From assembly GCA_033065855.1 (NCBI GenBank), contig JAVXUO010001206.1, forward strand, positions 181,846 through 245,845: a stretch of DNA of 64,000 bases. The letters are read 5' to 3'. A program made the position numbers and the translations under genes. Below are positions 9,170-40,700 of this stretch, piece by piece (positions within the stretch are counted from its first letter, which is position 1; every line of letters starts with the position of its first letter). Under the pieces are notes generated by a model. That model was given only the letters and a program-made list of their open reading frames with translations, did not search any database and had not been told where the DNA came from. This stretch comes from Escallonia rubra. Lineage: Eukaryota; Streptophyta; Magnoliopsida; Escalloniales; Escalloniaceae.

Positions 9170-10013
9170 GGTGGGTATGGATGATGCACATCCAGTGGGG
9201 GAGTTCATTTCGTAGGTTGCTCGGCAGATCGATGTAAGTTACAAATTAACTTGTATATAGTTAAAATTTCAATAATGTCTTCAATGTCTATTGCATTAAT
9301 GTCTTCAATGTCAAATCACTGTCTGCAGTCTGGTTAGTCATCAGCATACACGAGTAGGAGTACAAGTACCGGGGATTGAAGTTGTGGCTGGATACATCGG
9401 GGGTCGTCAATATAAGGAAAAAGCGTGTAAGCGGCCTACCTAGCGTGACTGCATGTGTCGTGATGGGGGCATCCCCACCCCCATAATGCCCCTCTAGACA
9501 CTGACATCGACCGTGGAGCGACAGTTACACCCGGAGGATGTTCGTCGCATTGCTCGAGAGGTAGTCAGGATGATTAGGGAGGATAAGGTACAAAATAGTT
9601 AGAATTATGAACTCAATATACATGAATAAATATAGGGCTAATTACACCTATATCCCTGAGGTTTGAGGGTAATTACAGCCAAGGACAATAGTTTGGACAA
9701 ATTACACTTATGTCCGTTGACCAGACAGAATCTTAAAAAACCTAACGGTTTTGATAAAATGACATTGTCACCCTTAAATTAGAATGTTATTTTCTTTCAC
9801 ATGCCATTACTTTATCTTTAAAAAAACAATTTAATGTTTACTCTAACCACCACCACCACCACCCTCCCCCCCCGCGCCACCCAACCCCCCCTATCCCCCC
9901 CAACCCAATTCTGTCTTTCAAACTCCCCCGACCACCGCACCCCTTCGTCTCCCTGTCTGCCTCCCCCTTCCTCGTCGCCGCACCACCTTCTCCCCTTTCC
10001 TTCCCCATCGCAG

Positions 10014-10320
10014 CTCACCCGCGACGACTCCTACGTCTGGCCCCGACTCACCGCCTCGACCCAGTCCTCCCTCAAATCCATCTTCCTTACATGCGTCCAG
10101 CGCGATGAGGCCAAGAAGATCATCAAGAAGCTCTGCGATACCATCTCTGAACTCGCCTATGGCATCCTGCCGGAAAATGGTTGGCCGGAGCTCTTACCAT
10201 TCATGTTCCAGTGCGTCTCCTCCGATTCGCCGAAGCTACAGGAATCCGCCTTCCTGATATTCGTTCAATTATCGTAGTACATCGGCGAAACCCTAATTCC
10301 ACACAAAGCACCTCCACGGC
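10014..10320 (+). pseudogene. Captured fragment of an importin-5 / KETCH1-like gene
   Basis: The frame reads LTRDDSYVWPRLTASTQSSL, then KKLCDTISELAYGILPENGW, then PELLPFMFQCVSSDSPKLQ and ESAFLIFVQLS. This is the N-terminal HEAT-repeat part of plant importin-beta family proteins of the importin-5 type (KETCH1 in Arabidopsis), which carry ribosomal proteins into the nucleus. The frame stops at TAG 10275-10277 and continues past it as YIGETLIPH, as in the parent, so a glutamine codon seems to have become a stop. A CAG acceptor precedes the fragment, so a genomic exon with intron tail was captured. Upstream frame (9834-10013) is low-complexity Pro/Thr/Ser. Confidence 0.88.
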
Positions 10321-11295: not shown

Positions 11296-11550
11296 GGGAG
11301 TTTTTTTTTTTCTTGTCGTTGAAAGTCTACAAGGACAGTGTTGTGAAAAACAGCGAGGGAAAAGTCCGTCGCTAAAGTTTTTGCCAACAAACCTTTAGCT
11401 ACATATAGTCTGTTGCTAAAACTCCAATATTTTTACCAGCGGACTTTTAGCGATATAATTTCCGTCACTAAAGGTCCATCAGCAAGACCTTTAGATACGG
11501 AAAAATTCGTTGCTAAAGATTTTTTTTAAATAATAATTTTCAAAAAAATA
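11296..11550. repeat. 255-bp direct repeat, left copy
   Basis: The segment starts GGGAGTTTTTTTTTT and ends CAAAAAAATA. It is repeated almost base for base at 12813-13066, with one visible T-run length difference, at an offset of 1,517 bp. It contains CACTA-type motifs (CCGTCGCTAAAG, CTTTTAGCGATA). The right copy begins exactly where the right end of Pack-MULE 2 should have been. Confidence 0.9.
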
Positions 11551-11739
11551 TAGGGTAAATTACACTAAACCCCCTGAGGTTTACACCCGTGTCTCACAAA
11601 GGACCCTAAGGTTCCAATTTCAACAACTAACACCCCAACTTTGCATTTTCGATCCAATTGGACCCAAAATCGATTTTCCGTCTAAAAAATGGTGGATGTC
11701 CATCCACCTTGAGGGGTAATTTTGGCAACACACATTTAT

Positions 11740-11789
<50 letters not shown>

Positions 11790-12543
11790 TGCTCTCCGGT
11801 CAAGGATGCAGCCATGAGAGCTCGCCGCGGTGGACGGACTCCACGCAAGTCATCAGCACATACACCAACCTATGCCAGAATCTTCCTCGATTTTGGTTCC
11901 CGTCGGTAACTTGCGGTGACCATCGGGTTCAGATCCGAGAAGGTTGATGGGTCGGGTACGGTTTTTTGGGCTGGTGGAGCTTGGAGAGGAGTGAGTCGAC
12001 CCAGGAGGCCACGTCCGATGGGTTGTACCGTTATAGTGAATGGCGTCGTTCGCGAGGTGCGAGACCTCCGTGGGGGCATTGACCATGACGGTCTCGAGGC
12101 ACCGAGCGACTTGCCAGAGCTCCGAGGACAGGTCCCTGTACCCAGCTCCGGCAAGGAGGCCGTCGATCATGTCGGCGGAAATCATAGATCTACGGCTTTT
12201 CGCAGAGGAGGAGGCGGCGGAAGAGGAGGCAGAGAAGCACTTCTGGCACATGTTTTTGGTGGCGGGGCTGCCAGTCACACCACAATTGTTGATGCAGAGG
12301 GTCAATATCTCGGGGACGGCCTTGAAATCGGCGTCTTCTTTCTCCGTCTTCTGCGCCATTTTTACCACAAGACAAGACTATCAACTGATTTATTTTGGGG
12401 TTTGATTCAATACGAAAGATCAATCTGAGAGGAAGAGAGAAATGGAGAGGGGGAGGTGGGGGGTTGAGAGGATGAAGGTGCGGGTGCGGGTGGGGAGGGG
12501 AAGATGATTTTTATGGGTGCTGAGAGAGGTCGGTAATGGCAGA

Positions 12544-12583
<40 letters not shown>

Positions 12584-12815
12584 TGTGTGTGTGTGTGTGC
12601 AGAAGAGAGAGTGGCGAGAAAAATCATATTTTCCCTCCAAATGCTTTCTTTTTGTTGGTTACCGAAAATGCCCCTCAAGGTGAACGTCCATCCATAGCTC
12701 TTGTAACGGAAAATCGATTTTGGGTCCAATTGGATCGAAAATGCAAAGTTGGGGTGTTAGTTGTTGAAATTGGAACCTTAGGGTCCTTTGTGAGACACGG
12801 GTGTAAACCTCAGGG
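11551..12815. mobile_element. Pack-MULE 2, right tip lost
   Basis: The left end reads TAGGGTAAATTACACTAAAC, CCCCTGAGGTTTACACCCG and onward. The inverted counterpart runs from about 12660 to 12815 (at least 150 bp of terminal inverted repeat) but stops at CCTCAGGG, lacking the outermost roughly 22 bp. The interior holds a captured chimeric gene segment on the minus strand and (CT)n/(GA)n tracts next to both arms (about 11743-11786 and 12550-12580). The ends resemble those of Pack-MULE 1, hence the MULE assignment. No target duplication can be read because the right edge is missing. Confidence 0.82.
11853..12368 (-). pseudogene. Chimeric captured ORF: SAP A20 zinc finger joined to a DELLA domain
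   Basis: This 171-codon open frame has two recognisable parts. Residues 4-47 (12359-12228) begin MAQKTEKE like plant stress-associated proteins and hold an A20 zinc finger with Cys25, Cys29, Cys41 and Cys44 (C-X3-C-X11-C-X2-C), including NNCGVTGSPAT. Residues about 62-113 (12185-12030) match the DELLA segment of GRAS gibberellin-response repressors (DGLLAGAGYR, ETVMVNAPTEVSHLANDA, IHYN). The parental continuation PSDVASWVDSLLSKL is present just beyond but in another frame, apparently after an 8-nt insertion near 12024-12033, and ends at about 11930. The AN1 finger and the GRAS domain are absent. Whether it is transcribed cannot be told from sequence; an intact ATG and 171-codon frame leave translation possible. 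Confidence 0.85.
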
Positions 12816-13057
12816 AGTTTTTTTTTTCTTGTCGTTGAAAGTCTACAAGGACAGTGTTGTGAAAAACAGCGAGGGAAAAGTCCGTCGCTAAAGTTTTTGC
12901 CAACAAACCTTTAGCTACATATAGTCTGTTGCTAAAACTCCAATATTTTTACCAGCGGACTTTTAGCGATATAATTTCCGTCACTAAAGGTCCATCAGCA
13001 AGACCTTTAGATACGGAAAAATTCGTTGCTAAAGATTTTTTTTAAATAATAATTTTC

Positions 13058-13066
<9 letters not shown>
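12813..13066. repeat. 255-bp direct repeat, right copy
   Basis: Nearly identical to 11296-11550. It begins inside the CTCAGGG of the truncated MULE terminus and runs to the start of the (AT)n tract. The near-identity points to a recent event. Confidence 0.9.
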
Positions 13067-13125
<59 letters not shown>

Positions 13126-13356
13126 GGAAATTATCTTTAGCGACGAAATTTTGTTGCTAAAGGAATTTATAGTCTGTTGCTAAAAGTTGGACTTTTGGTG
13201 ACGAATTTGAAAATTTCGTCACCAAACTTTTAGCGACGGGGTTATTAGTGACGGACTTTTAGCTACGGGGTGCTTGTCGCTAAAAGTCTTTGGCGATGAA
13301 TTTAAGACTTTTAACGACGAAATTGTCTGTCGCTAAAAGTCCTTTTCCTTGTAGTG
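13067..13356. repeat. (AT)n tract and CACTA right subterminal region with terminus
   Basis: (AT)n spans about 13067-13123. From 13126 to 13330 there are at least eight motifs of the TTAGCGACGA / CGTCGCTAAA type in both orientations. The region ends in the terminus TTTTCCTTGTAGTG at 13343-13356. Repeated short subterminal motifs of this kind are where CACTA accessory proteins bind. Confidence 0.75.
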
Positions 13357-18100: not shown

Positions 18101-18519
18101 CTAATTTGGCGACGCCCTCGTCGCAACCTCCTCGTGATAGCGATCCACGAGGTCTTCGAACTGCCCGAGCTCTTCCGCTAACTCCCAAGTTGCTTCATGC
18201 TCCGACAATCCCTTCCACTTGACCAAGTAGTGCTGCTTTGGTGGAACACCTCGTCCTTGTTCAAGCCTATCCCCAAGCACGTACTCGGCCTCGTGCCTTT
18301 GCAAGTCATGCAAAACTTGCGATGCATCTAAGAGTTTAGCCCCATCGGCTTGGCTCTCCCCCTTGACTTTTCGGCACACATGACAAGTCTTGACACACAT
18401 TTGCACCTCCTTCTTCATTTGAGGCCAAAAGTATGCCGTAGTCACCAAGGCATATGTCCGCCGATGTCGTGACTCCCTCGTATGACCATCTCCCTTAGGT
18501 CTCTCCACTTCGGCACGTA
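18101..18519 (-). pseudogene. Ty3 chromovirus pol C-terminus with integrase core deleted
   Basis: The frame begins with an integrase zinc-binding segment (RRTYALVTTAYFWPQMKKEV and CVKTCHVCRKVKG). It jumps within about 25 residues to a chromodomain (EAEYVLGDRLEQG, QHYLVKWKGLSEHEATWE). The chromodomain directs integration to heterochromatin in this lineage. The whole catalytic DDE core that normally separates these parts is missing. The second CACTA is inserted at 18520, cutting off everything upstream. Confidence 0.85.
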
Positions 18520-18905
18520 CACTACAAGAAAACAGGGTTTTAGCGACGGGGAAATCCGTCGCTAAAAGCCAAAATTTCGTCGCTAAAAGAATTAGCGACG
18601 GATTCACCGTCGCTAAATATCCCTCGTATAAAAGCCGTCACTAATAGTTTAGCGACGGAATTTTTAAATCCGTCGCTAAATATGTCATTTTTACCGACGG
18701 AGTTATTTTTCATTAGCAACGGATATTCCGTCGCGAATTATATTTTTAGGATTTTAATTTTTTTTCTTTTTTGTCAAATTAGCGACGGAATATTCCGTCG
18801 CTAAAAAACTTATTTAGCGACGGAATATTCCGTCGCTAAATAACTGATTATAGGAATACTTTAGCGACAGAATTAATCCGTCGCCAAAAGTCAAATTTTT
18901 TTTTT
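18520..18905. repeat. CACTA subterminal motif array
   Basis: Many copies of TTAGCGACGG and its reverse CCGTCGCTAAA, several joined head to head as TAGCGACGGAATATTCC + GTCGCTA. Such dense inverted short motifs at CACTA ends are known binding sites of the TNPA-type protein. The same motif is used in CACTA element B, which links the two families. Confidence 0.85.
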
Positions 18906-19105
18906 GAATTTTTTTTTATTTTTCAATTACCCAGACCTGTAATACAATTTTTAAATCTCAACAACAACGCGCAATAATCAATGCATAAAGAAATATATAG
19001 AATCAATTATAAAAAATATTTATTATAAAAAAAACTCATATATGTACAAGCCGGGCACGGGGGGCGGGGGGGGGGAAGCTAGGAACGGGCACGGGAAAGG
19101 GCTCA

Positions 19106-20030
19106 TCAGGGGTTCCTGAGTCCCGGATCTGGATCCTGCTGATCCGGGGCCGGGGCGGCCTGTCCAGCAGTGCCCTGCTCCCTGATCATCCGGCACACCA
19201 CTGTAGCAATGCGCTGGATCTCTTCGTCGTCCAACTGAGGCCGAGGAGCCGGTGTCTGTGGAGGGGCAGCATGGGGTGAGGACGCTCCTATCACGGCACG
19301 AGCAGTCGTGCTAGGCAGGCCGCGTATGCGGCCTTTCGTCCGATTCACGACCTCCGGCGTATCCAGCCATCGCTTCAACCCCCCAGTACTCGCAGCCGTA
19401 CTGGTGGACGCTGATGGCTGTCCGGACTGCTGCTCGGACCCCCTTAGCTGTTCATACGAGGCCTGCAAAAATAGTGGTTTAACAATATGTTAGGGCATTA
19501 ATTAACGAAACAGACATTGAGGATAGAAAGAAAAAATATTAACTTAAATAAATTGACTCACATCGATCCGCCGGGCAATATCTGAAATATAGTCGCCTGC
19601 CCGGTGCGTCTCGTCCTTGTCCTTCTTCCGCACGTGCGTCTGAGTATAGGTCAGAGCTATGACCTCATCCTCCTCCAGATCCGGGTGCTCGACCGCGTTC
19701 ATGTGTCGGACGATGTCGTGTGGCACCGACCCCCCCGTGTGCGTCGGATCTCTGTTCTGTCTGTTCTCAGCCCCGCTCTTACTCTTGGCGTCCCAACCTG
19801 GATCCGCAGCCCACCGATCTATCATCTCCCCCCATACACGGTGAGATATCCAATGTGGGGGATATCTCGTCATGTCCGTCATCGGGGCACCCGCGGGCAG
19901 CGCCTTCTTCGCCCGGTCCCGTGCATCGTGGAGCCATCGGCGGTAATTCTTGCCGATGTAGGCAAAGAAAGCCTGCTGCCCCAGTACCTGCTGCTGAGGC
20001 GTGTCAAACGTGAACCCCTCCTGTAAGGCA
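19106..20030 (-). CDS. CACTA accessory transposition protein (Transposase_24-like), two exons
   Basis: Exon a is 20030-19562, with acceptor CAG before it and donor AT|GTGAGT after it. Exon b is 19462-19106, starting after TTTGCAG. Exon a encodes NYRRWLHDARDRAKKALPAG, PPHWISHRVWGEMIDRWA and a KSKSGAENRQNR stretch, typical of the plant Ptta/En/Spm transposase family. Exon b holds GGLKRWLDTPEVVNRTKGRI and the helix DEEIQRIATVVCRMIREQG. The protein is thought to bind subterminal repeats. No ATG is seen at the start of exon a, so the 5' end of this gene is missing or lies in an unrecognised exon. Confidence 0.7.
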
Positions 20031-20123
20031 TTCAATAACACAAATTAACAACATAAAAGAAACTGTAATTTAACATTTACTAACGCTGAAAAAAATACTT
20101 CACCGTACCAGCCAATTTAAGGA

Positions 20124-22340
20124 TTACCTCTCGAAGGGATACATCCACCGATATTGCACGGGTCCACCCATCTTAGCTTCATATGCCAAGTGAACAGGCA
20201 GATGCTCCATTGAATCAAAGAACGAAGGTGGGAAGATTTTCTCCAGCTTGCAAATCGTCACCACAATGTTCTTCTCAAGCACTTCCATGTTACTCACCTG
20301 GATCGTAGAAGAGCATATATCTCGAAAGAAATGAGATAATTCAGTCAAAGTCTCGCAAACAACCCGTGGCAACAGTCCCCGGAAGGCAATAGGAATGAAT
20401 CTCTCCATGAATACGTGGCAGTCGTGACTCTTCATCCCTTGGAACTTGCATTTCGATACATTGCAACAACGAGATATGTTGGACGCAAACCCATCCGGAA
20501 GCTTCAAATTCTTAACCCACTGACAGACCTTCTCCACTTGTTTCTTGTCTAGACAGTAAGGTGCTTTCGGAAGTATGGTCCTCCCACTGACTGTCCGAGG
20601 ATGCAATTCACGGCGTACACCCAACTGTTGTAGATCCCTTCTCGCTTTAAGGTGATCTTTCGATTTGCCCTTGACATTCATCACTGTGTTGAACACATTA
20701 TCAAAAACGTTCTTCTCAATATGCATCACATCCATGTTGTTTCGGATAACGAGCGTCCTCCAGTAGGCTAACTCCAAGAAGATACAAAATTTTCTCCAGT
20801 TGTGCTTTTTCCTGAACCCTGCAATCTTCCGATCCGGCACACCCTTACCGTGTGGTATGTCAGTATCAAGTGCCTCCAGGTGTGAGAGTACTTCTTCACC
20901 AGATGGGTAGTCCAGTGTGACAACCTCACGCTCGATTGTCCCGTCAAATTTATCCTTCTGCCTACGAAACTGATGGCCCGGTGGCAAAAGCTTACGGTGA
21001 CATCCGAACCACGAGGCCTTTCCGCCGTGCTTTAACGTATGACCGGAGTTCACGCCCATACAAGCAGGGCATGCTAGCTTCCCATGTGTGCTCCAGCCAC
21101 ACGTTATTCCCAATGCGGGGAAATCATGTATAGTCCACATCAAAGCAGCCCTCATCTGAAAATTTTGTTTAAGGGATGCATCATATGTTTCGACTCCATG
21201 ATTCCATAATTGTTTTAACTCATCAATCAACGGCTTTAAATACACATCTATGTCCTTACCGGGACTCTTCGGCCCCGGAATAAGCAACGACAAGAACATA
21301 TACGGCTTCTTCATGCACATGCCTGGTGGAAGGTTGTAAGGGACAATAATAACAGGCCAACAGGAGTAAGGCGTGGTAGACTGACCGAAAGGGTTGAACC
21401 CATCGGTTGCCAGACCAAGTCTAACATTCCGAACTTCCTGAGCAAAGACTGGATGCCTGCGGTCAAACTCCTTCCACGCCTCTCCATCAGCTGGGTGTGT
21501 CAGCACATCGGCATCGTTGCTGCGAGTCTCACGGTGAGCCCTCATATGTTCAGCCGTACTGGAGGAGTAATACATTCTCTGAAGCCGTGGTGTGACCGGG
21601 AAATATCGCAATATCTTCCGTGCAATGTTTTTCTTCTTCCCTTTGTCCGGTTTGTACCTCGAATGATCACATACTTGACATAATGACAAATCCTTATTCT
21701 CTTTCCAGAATAATACACAATCGTTATTGCACGCATCTATCCGGTCATAGCTCAACCCAAGTTTCCTCATCATCTTCTTCGCGTCATAGTACGACGGCGG
21801 TAGCTTTTCACTTTCAGGCAGTATTTCTTTGATGAAGGTAACAAACTCGTTAAAACCTTTCTCACTCAGCCTGTGGTCTGATTTCAACTGTAATAACCTA
21901 CAAACCGCAGACAGCCGTGTGTGTTTCGGAGCTCTATCCCACAGTGGCTGTTCCGCAGCTCTCAACAACTCATAAAACTGATGAGCCCCCTCGTTCGGCG
22001 GTTGTGGACTGTCGTTACCCCAGTCAACATTAGCATGCCCAGCATCCATAATCATATCTCGGAAATCATATCGTGCCTCCTCCCTAACTTTAGTTTGACT
22101 AGCCAGGTTGGACGACAATACTATCGTTTCCCCGTGCTGCGTCCACCTTGTGTATCCACCCATAAAACCGTACCGACGAAGATGCCATTTTACTTCAATT
22201 CTTTTTCTCCAGTGCAACAACTCACATCTACCGCACGGACACCTTATCTTATCAAGGTCAACATGTGCAGGATGCGCATAAGCGAAGTCGAGAAATTCGT
22301 CAACGCGACACTCAAAATCTTCAGCATTCTTCCTTTTCAT
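20124..22340 (-). CDS. CACTA TNP2-type transposase, C-terminally truncated
   Basis: One frame of 738 codons. Residues about 20-75 form the transposase-associated domain with CPCGRC and HLRRYGFMGGYTRWTQHGE. Residues about 280-430 are the TNP2 core (RNVRLGLATDGFNPFG, YNLPPGMCMKKPYMFLSLLI, HDFPALG, HGKLACPACMG). Residues about 690-738 begin the DUF4218 region and end at MGGPVQYRWMYPFER, where a GTAATC donor follows. The rest of DUF4218 and DUF4216 is not found in the 94 bp before the next exon, so an internal deletion is likely. The usual start MDRSWM is present as VDQSWM, so translation would begin at the second Met. The central frame is otherwise intact. Confidence 0.92.
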   Translation of the reverse strand: MKRKNAEDFECRVDEFLDFAYAHPAHVDLDKIRCPCGRCELLHWRKRIEVKWHLRRYGFMGGYTRWTQHGETIVLSSNLASQTKVREEARYDFRDMIMDAGHANVDWGNDSPQPPNEGAHQFYELLRAAEQPLWDRAPKHTRLSAVCRLLQLKSDHRLSEKGFNEFVTFIKEILPESEKLPPSYYDAKKMMRKLGLSYDRIDACNNDCVLFWKENKDLSLCQVCDHSRYKPDKGKKKNIARKILRYFPVTPRLQRMYYSSSTAEHMRAHRETRSNDADVLTHPADGEAWKEFDRRHPVFAQEVRNVRLGLATDGFNPFGQSTTPYSCWPVIIVPYNLPPGMCMKKPYMFLSLLIPGPKSPGKDIDVYLKPLIDELKQLWNHGVETYDASLKQNFQMRAALMWTIHDFPALGITCGWSTHGKLACPACMGVNSGHTLKHGGKASWFGCHRKLLPPGHQFRRQKDKFDGTIEREVVTLDYPSGEEVLSHLEALDTDIPHGKGVPDRKIAGFRKKHNWRKFCIFLELAYWRTLVIRNNMDVMHIEKNVFDNVFNTVMNVKGKSKDHLKARRDLQQLGVRRELHPRTVSGRTILPKAPYCLDKKQVEKVCQWVKNLKLPDGFASNISRCCNVSKCKFQGMKSHDCHVFMERFIPIAFRGLLPRVVCETLTELSHFFRDICSSTIQVSNMEVLEKNIVVTICKLEKIFPPSFFDSMEHLPVHLAYEAKMGGPVQYRWMYPFER

Positions 22341-22359
22341 CCAACTTTGATCGACTGAT

Positions 22360-37792: not shown

Positions 37793-40700
37793 TTAACTGG
37801 ATGAGGTCTTGTCTTTCTTCCCTGCAAGAATCATAGAAATCTGGAGCCCTCTACTGAAAGCTTGATTGAAGAGTAGCCGTGTTTGGAATTCTGATACGAA
37901 TGGAAACCAGGCTAATACAACTACGGGCATGAATAACACTAGTCCCATTACACATTCATAAGCTCTTCCCAGCTCCATTATCGAATCCCAGAAGCCTATG
38001 CCTTTCAAACAGGGCCTGCAGGCTTGACCAATCTTCAAGACGAAAAGACAAAGAAAAGTCGTCAGAGAACTTCGAAAAAGACACAAGAAGAACCACCACC
38101 TCCCCTTCTCTTTTAAACAACTTTCTTTGTGCAAAATTAAATGCACCACAGGCGATGGCACTTGTGTAAGAAAGGGTAGCCGAAGGAGGCTTTCGACATT
38201 GCAGGGTCTACGGAGAATTCAGCCTATCCCTACTTTTTTTGGAAGGGGGCTGTTTGTGTAATATAAAGCAAACAAGGACAGCACTTATGTTTCCTACAGG
38301 TTCTACATGAATTAATTGAAACATGCCACATACAGACCCAGGGTTTTTCATGTGCTATAGCCAGGTAACCTCATGAAATTCCTGAACAGTCAAAAGTGCA
38401 GCAACAAAATTTTGGGGGCTACATTTGACGCATTTGAAAATGCAAGAAAATGTTTTCTAACTAGAGATAAATGGAAATTTGTGCACAAAAGCTCGGAAAG
38501 GTAAAGTGACTGTATATCCTACTATTTTCTTCAAACGAATATACTTTTCACATGGATGTAAGTTCCGATTTTTAACAAAGGATGCCAAACTTTGTTAGGC
38601 CTAATTATCTTAACTCATTGGGCTTTTACGTAATGAAATACTCAGAGCACTATTTATGGGGTCGGTGCAATTTTGATAGAACTGTCTAATATGCTACATG
38701 GTTTGTGCACTATCAGAATGTACAGAAGTTTGAACTTACCAGAAGAAGGGCCCACCCCGTCGGCAGGAAAGCAAGGACAGAAGCAAATAAATCACTTATT
38801 GTTAGGGCACATACTACAAATAAGACGGTCATAACTGATACGAAGCCAAGGAACAAAAGAGCTTTTAGAATCCGGAACATGAGCTGAAAGTCGGTACCAA
38901 ATTTTCGTCTGCCCATTGATACCATCTGATAAAAAAGGTACACATACAAGCAGCATTAGAGCATTCAACAAGTCAAAAAGACTAAAAAGCTCCTTTGGCA
39001 GTATCGCCCGTAGTTCCAAAATGTTCACGTATGCTCTAGCAAGTGCAAAAAATCTTTGAAAGCTATAAGTAAACGTGATGTTACGGGCAACAACCAAGCT
39101 ACGTTTATCAGAAGCATCTCATTTTTTCTAAACATTGAATTTAATATGAATACCTTTAAGACTAGAAGAGCCGTTGCCATAACAAACCAAGAAAGTCCAT
39201 AAACCTACAACGAACTTACTTTTGTTAATTGTCAGGTAAGATTGACGAATAGCAGAGAATGCATGTTTGTTATCGATAGGGTGGAGGGGGGACAAAAATT
39301 AAAATATTACCAGTATGCTCTTGCTGCCATGAGCAATATCAAGGTGATAGACAATCCCGTACTGGTATATGAAGAAGCGGAATGCAAGGATTATCTCAAG
39401 AACCCTACCCCTAATATTTGTGAATTTTAGGTGTTCCTGTTCTCCGTCCCACCAGGATTCCCAACTTTTATCCGGTGAGATACCAATACCGCCACGATTT
39501 CCCATCCACCTCTTCCAGTCTGTCCAGTCATCGACTGTTTTCTGCCACTCAAACCCGGATGGATTGAACACAAAAGGAGCAAACAACCAGGACGCAACGA
39601 GGAACCACATAGAGAATGTAATAAACAAGAAGAGATTTGAACTTCGATACGATTCCCCGTAGACTTGATAAACAACCAAAAGTATGGCGAGCTCCAACCC
39701 TTTCACGAAGTGACTACGCGAGTATAACCTGTAGTTTTCAGCAAATTTCGCATGGAAAACAACAAACCCACGGCCAGTAGCACGGTATTTAGAACCACCA
39801 TGTAAAATTGTTCTACCATAGTAATGCGCTTTTGTTCCAAGCTGAAATGTAAAGAACACAGAGGCCAGCTGCAGCTGCATAATTATAAAGTCACCGATCG
39901 CTCTGCGAAACCCTCTTTCAAGACCAATTTCCATGACCATAGGCAGCACCAACAATAAGCCCAGCTGAAAGACGGATTGGGTAGCCAAAGCCTCTTCCAG
40001 GGCCTTGCTCTGACGTATAGTTGGATCTTCTAGAATCCGTCTTTCCAACCCGCTCAAAACCATATACAAACGTCCGTATAGAAATAAATATACAGTGAGT
40101 ACAGTAACCTGAAAATCATGATCTCAAATCAAGCTCTAAACATGTATTCTCCATCTAATAGATAGAAGTCACAATCCTTTGAAAAAAGACAGCTGTGAGG
40201 AAGGTAGTAGAGACCCCTTTAAAGTATAATGCATGATTCACAAAGTCACACAACCGAGACCAGCGTACATCCCTCATCACCCTCAACATCCTGGAACCTT
40301 ATACCAATACCTATGTGTCAGGTTTACACATTTTCTCTTTGGCACAGATAACAATTCATGGAACGGAAGTTGAAACACACTGCAGACGTGGCTTAGAGGT
40401 AAGTAGTAACGTCCTCTCAGGAAACCTTGTTTGTGAGTTTTATGAAGGAGATAAGACAAAAGGAGATGGAAAGAAAGATAAATGGAACGAAAAGAGAGAA
40501 AGATTTGCCCTCTTTTCTTTTCAAACTCTCTGTTCAAACTTGAAAAGAAATGGAGAGAAAGGAAAGTAAGGTTGATAAAACATTTGGAATACCAAAATTA
40601 CCCTTTCATCTTTTAACAAAAACTAACACCACATTTCGAGAAAAAGAGCAGTCTAGTAATAGCAACTCCAAAACTTTCTCTTGCTTTCCTTTCTCTCCAA

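Follow-up and report, generated by a model that had tools for sequence, protein, structure and literature searches.

Analysis of a 64,000-nucleotide stretch of Escallonia rubra DNA (the window) revealed a transposon with a reading frame that joins an A20 finger to a DELLA domain. We consider it quite probable that this element belongs to a multicopy, non-autonomous Pack-MULE family with a two-gene chimera as its interior, of which it is one copy truncated at an end, and that the element is a recombinant and its fused protein a young by-product. Chimeric Pack-MULEs are known, and the steps of their assembly are usually gone. The present element was confirmed as an object of this known kind, and its interest lies in a traceable assembly rather than in a demonstrated protein: candidate source genes, both types of single-gene element and the amplified fusion coexist in one genome, and a putative template switch can be mapped inside a TIR, so that sequence data offer a direct test of how multi-gene chimeras arise.

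Table 1 Features of the chimeric element and its flanks (window coordinates)
Feature	Position	Strand	Evidence and remarks
Chimeric Pack-MULE, window copy	11553..12815	- (coding orientation)	inverted repeats, duplications at sister copies, left end GGGTAAATTACACT at 11553
3' (DELLA-side) TIR, mosaic	11553..11734	-	outer ~121 bp of SAP-MULE type, from ~130 inward of DELLA-MULE type
5' (SAP-side) TIR, SAP-MULE type	12653..12815	-	~18-19 outermost bp missing
Fused frame from ATG, 168 codons + stop	11853..12359	-	ORF list and sequence
SAP-gene-derived stretch (5' leader and first ~61 codons)	12176..12545	-	element 276-645; 94.9% to gene L019, gaps counted
Stretch related to the C3100 DELLA/GRAS gene, 77%	11792..12178	-	element 643-1029
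Junction, 3-bp overlap CCG	12176..12178	-	protein SMIS/ADMIDG; alignment to single-gene elements and genes
A20 zinc finger (PF01754)	12234..12299	-	Pfam, residues 24-45, E 2e-9
DELLA domain match (PF12041)	12009..12164	-	Pfam, residues 69-120, E 1.8e-10, profile 1-56 of 69
8-bp insertion GGTACAAC (minus-strand letters)	12022..12029	-	interrupts VHYNP; alignment of copies
251-bp direct repeat (perfect) flanking the element, left copy	11302..11552	+	repeat search
251-bp direct repeat, right copy	12818..13068	+	repeat search

The frame lies on the minus strand (12359-11853), and a Pfam profile search placed both domains in it with scores exceeding the Pfam cut-offs, while neither an AN1 finger nor a GRAS domain was detected in the frame by the same search. 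By PDB sequence search, the DELLA part matched the structures of RGA and GAI (best E 1.3e-5), and the A20 part yielded weak matches only (E 0.08-0.19). Counted from its ATG (12359-12357) the frame comprises 168 codons; the earlier note was thus right in assigning it a start codon of its own, but its length of 171 codons is reached only if a GTG is counted (12368-11853). The significant E-values for both domains, together with a SAP donor gene in the same genome, place the fusion beyond chance. Moreover, the identical in-frame join was found at other genomic sites (L002-L007), so that the two halves must be contiguous in the genome. The chance that the fused frame is an assembly artefact appears practically negligible: the perfect 251-bp repeat around the window copy may indeed be an assembly join of two alleles, but the same join recurs with different flanks and different 9-bp duplications. 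The claims that a SAP-type A20 finger and a DELLA part share one open frame, and that this frame resides within a MULE, were accordingly borne out, the latter by 168-bp TIRs and by the target duplications of sister copies.

Compared with SAPs (A20/AN1), the fusion has the same N-terminal A20 finger, with 63 of its residues 1-64 identical to the host gene, but is devoid of AN1, whereas SAP-only elements keep both fingers. With the DELLA proteins (GAI/RGA/RGL) it shares a DELLA domain match in Pfam, the nearest intact gene being C3100 (DELLA + GRAS), but it differs by the absence of GRAS, an interrupted VHYNP and three missing residues near LExLE. A narrow search of the open-licence literature returned no A20-DELLA fusion.

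A search of the host assembly (566 Mb, 3222 contigs) with the 516 bases of the frame gave 27 matches, which were sorted by surrounding sequence, repeat counts being lower bounds. Twelve chimeric elements (L001-L012, with L001 as the window copy) were recovered alongside eight DELLA-only elements (L013-L017, L020, L025 and L026; the row L027 lists L014 once more) and four SAP-only elements (L018, L021, L022 and L023). The remaining matches corresponded to two intact genes, one coding for a SAP and one for a DELLA/GRAS protein. Nine of the 12 chimeras matched the whole query, and in L010-L012 the start codon of the SAP part and the first cysteine of A20 have been lost. An ATG, an A20 finger with all cysteines and the DELLA part were retained in one open frame by seven chimeras (L001-L007), while the A20 frame was broken in L008 and L009. 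The SAP-only elements hold nearly the whole A20 + AN1 coding sequence in an open frame of 180-182 codons (4/4 copies), and the AN1 finger was recognized by Pfam in L018. Among the DELLA-only elements, L025 has degenerate ends. Chimeras L010-L012 contain an additional, later stretch (582-1455 in L010). A third captured gene is not claimed here: the extra stretch matches a repeat (at least 49 matches, with 40 of 230 candidates scored), which points to further recombination with another repeat or MULE.

The inverted repeats of the window copy (11567-11734 and 12653-12820) measure 168 bp and are 89% complementary. In a comparison of the TIR ends of 20 elements, each of L002-L012 showed an end-to-end likeness of 90-92% over 170 bp. 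Perfect 9-bp target duplications were observed at nine of the 12 chimeras, where they all differ from one another, and also at four of the eight DELLA-only elements (that of L015 in an AT run) and at two of the four SAP-only elements; shifts of up to two bases were allowed, with all perfect duplications at shift 0 except L015, and one end could not be located in L001, L022, L025 and L026. Duplications with one mismatch were present at L011 and L020 and with two mismatches at L007 and L016, while none was found at L023. The different perfect duplications around the chimeras demonstrate that the chimera moved as a unit and argue that it is a mobile, multicopy Pack-MULE. The element is probably non-autonomous; no transposase frame was seen inside it. 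Genes for MULE transposases are abundant in the genome: at least 150 matches to the MULE transposase (PF10551) occur in the assembly, all above the cut-off (150 of 3309 candidates scored), and none of the scored matches was linked to these TIRs. Many of these 150 scored matches have equal scores and open frames some 777 codons long, perhaps reflecting a recent MULE burst. As a further observation, the SAP-type TIR had 471 candidate places, of which the 40 scored showed 94-100% identity; some of the scored places form element-sized inverted pairs (C2221:513741-515078 and C1518:463807-465186), which probably represent more packed elements.

According to Pfam, the intact SAP gene, with A20 and AN1, is located on C1808 (L019/L052) and the intact DELLA/GRAS gene on C3100 (L024/L053). 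TIR ends were not seen at either gene locus; host gene fragments with TIR-less donors elsewhere, a trait of Pack-MULEs, are thus present, with the reservation that C3100 is only 77% identical in DNA to the DELLA half of the window copy. The expectation that both donors reside in the same species therefore held for SAP, where the protein match is nearly complete, while for DELLA only a relative was found. Given this low identity, either the DELLA capture is much older or the donor was another or a lost gene. Two further DELLA genes of the genome (C2705 and C1653) shared no 21-mer with the five elements tested. Elsewhere, three A20 matches within 10 kb (G000:C2362:199484-209077) in open frames of 174-189 codons probably constitute a SAP gene cluster.

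The assembly of the chimera could be followed by comparison with the single-gene elements. Bases 1-653 of L002 are collinear with SAP-only L018 (94%), including the 5' TIR and the spacer, and bases 651-1273 are collinear with the DELLA-only elements L013, L014 and L016 (86-90%); the diverged DELLA-only element L020 aligned in pieces with 82-83% identity. Gene capture is the usual picture for Pack-MULEs, and a DELLA-MULE might in principle have captured the SAP portion from the SAP gene without an intermediate. This route is extremely improbable and was rejected, however, as the chimeras share with the SAP-MULEs the full 5' TIR and spacer (to about base 284), which are missing from the gene, and each of the 12 chimeras has a 5' TIR that is of SAP type at no fewer than 30 of the 31 sites.

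The 3' TIR, by comparison, proved to be a mosaic. At 30 diagnostic sites, fixed between the classes as sampled (12 chimeras, three of the four SAP-only and four of the eight DELLA-only elements), its type switches from SAP to DELLA between positions 121 and 130 in 12/12 chimeras. The 3' TIR of L002, for instance, carries 18 SAP-type sites and one DELLA-type site before the switch and none and 11, respectively, after it (Fisher p 2.2e-7, an optimistic value computed at the best cut). A clean switch is contradicted at position 5 and, in certain copies, at a few isolated sites. The mosaic also explains why, on average, SAP-type ends resemble the 3' TIR of the chimeras more closely (90%) than DELLA-type ends do (84% and 80%). 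Because the same switch recurs in all chimeras, a single event is most likely ancestral to them all, and the 12 copies most likely descend from it. These data indicate that the chimera descends from two pre-existing single-gene Pack-MULEs: it consists of the 5' end of a SAP element and an outer 3' TIR of SAP type, with DELLA-element sequence throughout the section that begins midway in the SAP frame and extends into the inner 3' TIR. The earlier description as a transposon-built chimera was thus correct with respect to the MULE, but the object is a recombinant of two single-gene Pack-MULEs in 12 copies and not a private event.

While the mosaic can be read directly from the copies, the underlying repair mechanism is one that we infer from sequence. 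A break or stalled fork within a SAP element would have been the starting point. Repair would then have copied from a DELLA element, entering at the 3-bp overlap and leaving through the homology of the related TIRs. In the most economical reading, the middle of the SAP-MULE, including the AN1 part, would thereby have been replaced by DELLA-MULE sequence, and the product would later have been spread by MULE transposase acting in trans. We are inclined to generalize, with some reserve, that Pack-MULEs exchange captured modules by TIR homology at one end and microhomology at the other, and that two-gene fusions are built stepwise from a pool of single-gene elements. Like Pack-MULEs in general, the elements have long TIRs, 9-bp target duplications, pieces of captured genes and multiple copies, and they form two-gene chimeras; the difference is that here the pieces were apparently joined by recombination of two Pack-MULEs, leaving a mosaic TIR, with the single-gene elements still present. 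The proposed course agrees with the gap-filling and template-switching (FoSTeST) models that PMC8277862 developed on animals for the origin of Pack-TIRs. Common to both are a short junction overlap, a template switch and later amplification by transposition, whereas in our case a second packed element would itself have served as template and TIR homology is the site of the other junction. PMC3310237 describes it as an open question whether recombination gives rise to tandem-TIR MULEs, and no title on a fusion between two Pack-MULEs emerged from our narrow search of open-licence literature.

A frameshift in the VHYNP-type part had been noted before and was traced to the 8-bp insertion GGTACAAC. 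The insertion is present in 10 of the 12 chimeras (eight by sequence; L004 and L006 inferred from identical translation) and missing in L009 and L012, which keep HYN(P/L)SDVASW but have a broken A20. Hence A20 and VHYNP are not both intact in any chimera (0/12). The insertion creates TACAAC-GG-TACAAC, resembling an excision footprint or a repair duplication. Compared with the gene on C3100, the frame of the fusion differs by -9, +8 (VHYNP), +2, -39 and -4 bp, after which the DELLA frame is regained at HRKLPTGTKIEEDSGI; downstream, a 1-bp deletion gives GWCMC and then a stop. The -9 bp change is common to the DELLA-only elements L013-L016 (by alignment) and L017 and L020 (by translation) but not to L025, with L026 outside this comparison. 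Three codons are missing at the LExLE region of the fused frame; the DELLA profile scores above the cut-off but is covered only at positions 1-56 of 69. An E-to-G mutation of the DELLA motif in the chimera was considered and rejected, since the intact C3100 gene also reads DGLLA. We further observed that L010-L012 share the deletion of the SAP start, while the 8-bp insertion is carried by L010 and L011 and not by L012, a pattern that hints at exchange between copies.

To assess constraint on the protein, distinct changes of the SAP half in nine chimeras, including L008 and L009 with their broken A20 frames, were compared with the parental SAP gene. Eleven nonsynonymous (one of them a stop) and nine synonymous changes were counted, whereas random placement, which kept mutation types but not neighbours and counted each distinct change once, predicted 11.0 nonsynonymous ones (P(N<=observed) 0.59). 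The in-frame DELLA part, with the majority of the nine chimeras as ancestor, gave 5:4 (expected N 5.7, P 0.44) and the SAP-only elements 19:9 (expected N 18.1, P 0.71), the lone stop in the latter count arising from a doubly changed codon of L023, which itself keeps an open frame. Selection on the protein was thus detected neither in the SAP half nor in the DELLA part of the chimera, at low power given 20 distinct changes in the SAP half, nor in the SAP-only elements, despite open frames in 4/4 copies. Youth accounts for the fact that chimera frames are open, pairwise identity among nine chimeras amounting to 95.7-99.9% (gaps ignored).

C>T or G>A made up 12 of the 13 changes in the SAP half of five distinct chimeras that align without gaps. 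Over whole elements such events accounted for 58/107 in chimeras, 83/170 in DELLA-only and 28/46 in SAP-only elements, counted within repeats only, with the majority base as ancestor, in eight of the nine full-length chimeras (L001 left out), five of the eight DELLA-only and three of the four SAP-only elements. Their rate was higher at CG and CHG than at CHH (p 0.0004, 3e-8 and 0.002, respectively). The excess is probably that of methylated, silenced repeats, and the chimera is most likely a young, recently moved and silenced element.

The chimeras might code for a working A20-DELLA protein that serves as a decoy in signalling by ubiquitin or gibberellin. This proposal is consistent with the seven open frames with complete cysteines and with PMC7237032, which describes a SAP that remains active without AN1 and increases gibberellin in transgenic tobacco, so that a translated A20-only product need not be inert. 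Against it stand the 11:9 ratio expected without selection, the lost codons at LExLE, the interrupted VHYNP and the damaged A20 fingers of L008-L012. The decoy that the earlier note had suggested is therefore unsupported as a protein under selection, and such a function is highly unlikely; the fused protein is most likely a young by-product without visible constraint, and the data lend no support to a function of the A20-DELLA fusion as a protein.

Any effect on the host would most plausibly come from small RNAs matching SAP. The window copy shares 198 of its 1248 21-mers with the 7-kb SAP locus but 24 with the 8-kb DELLA locus and none with two other DELLA loci, and 461 of 1081 21-mers of the SAP-MULE L018 are identical to the SAP locus. 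In Oryza, small RNAs and 24-nt-directed methylation of MULE-derived genes have been reported (PMC4858842). However, 24-nt silencing of the elements need not reach the gene, and we regard action of the elements on the host via small RNAs targeting the SAP gene as rather unlikely overall. Such action, which the earlier note had also proposed against the parents, would be possible on the SAP gene and less so on DELLA, and the open A20 + AN1 frames of the SAP-only elements, together with the many exact SAP-locus 21-mers, make a concrete small-RNA experiment possible.

Turning to the flanks of the window copy, its own target duplication cannot be assessed because the end of the SAP-side TIR is missing; its sister copies have duplications. 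The truncation falls at a GGG(AG) microhomology. The left copy of the 251-bp repeat stops at the element, while the right copy continues toward a CACTA-like end at 13348-13356 and so resembles the site in its unoccupied state. The repeat would reflect either the joining of a break at the element end to an empty sister or homologue, or two alleles merged in the assembly.

Further along the window, a CACTA-type end (18520), a tnp2 transposase frame (22358-20124) and an integrase zinc-binding/chromodomain frame (18637-18101) suggest that the region 18101-22358 consists of nested transposons. Exons of a 1,3-beta-glucan (callose) synthase (39299-40123) and of an importin-5-like gene (9822-10277) were also observed.
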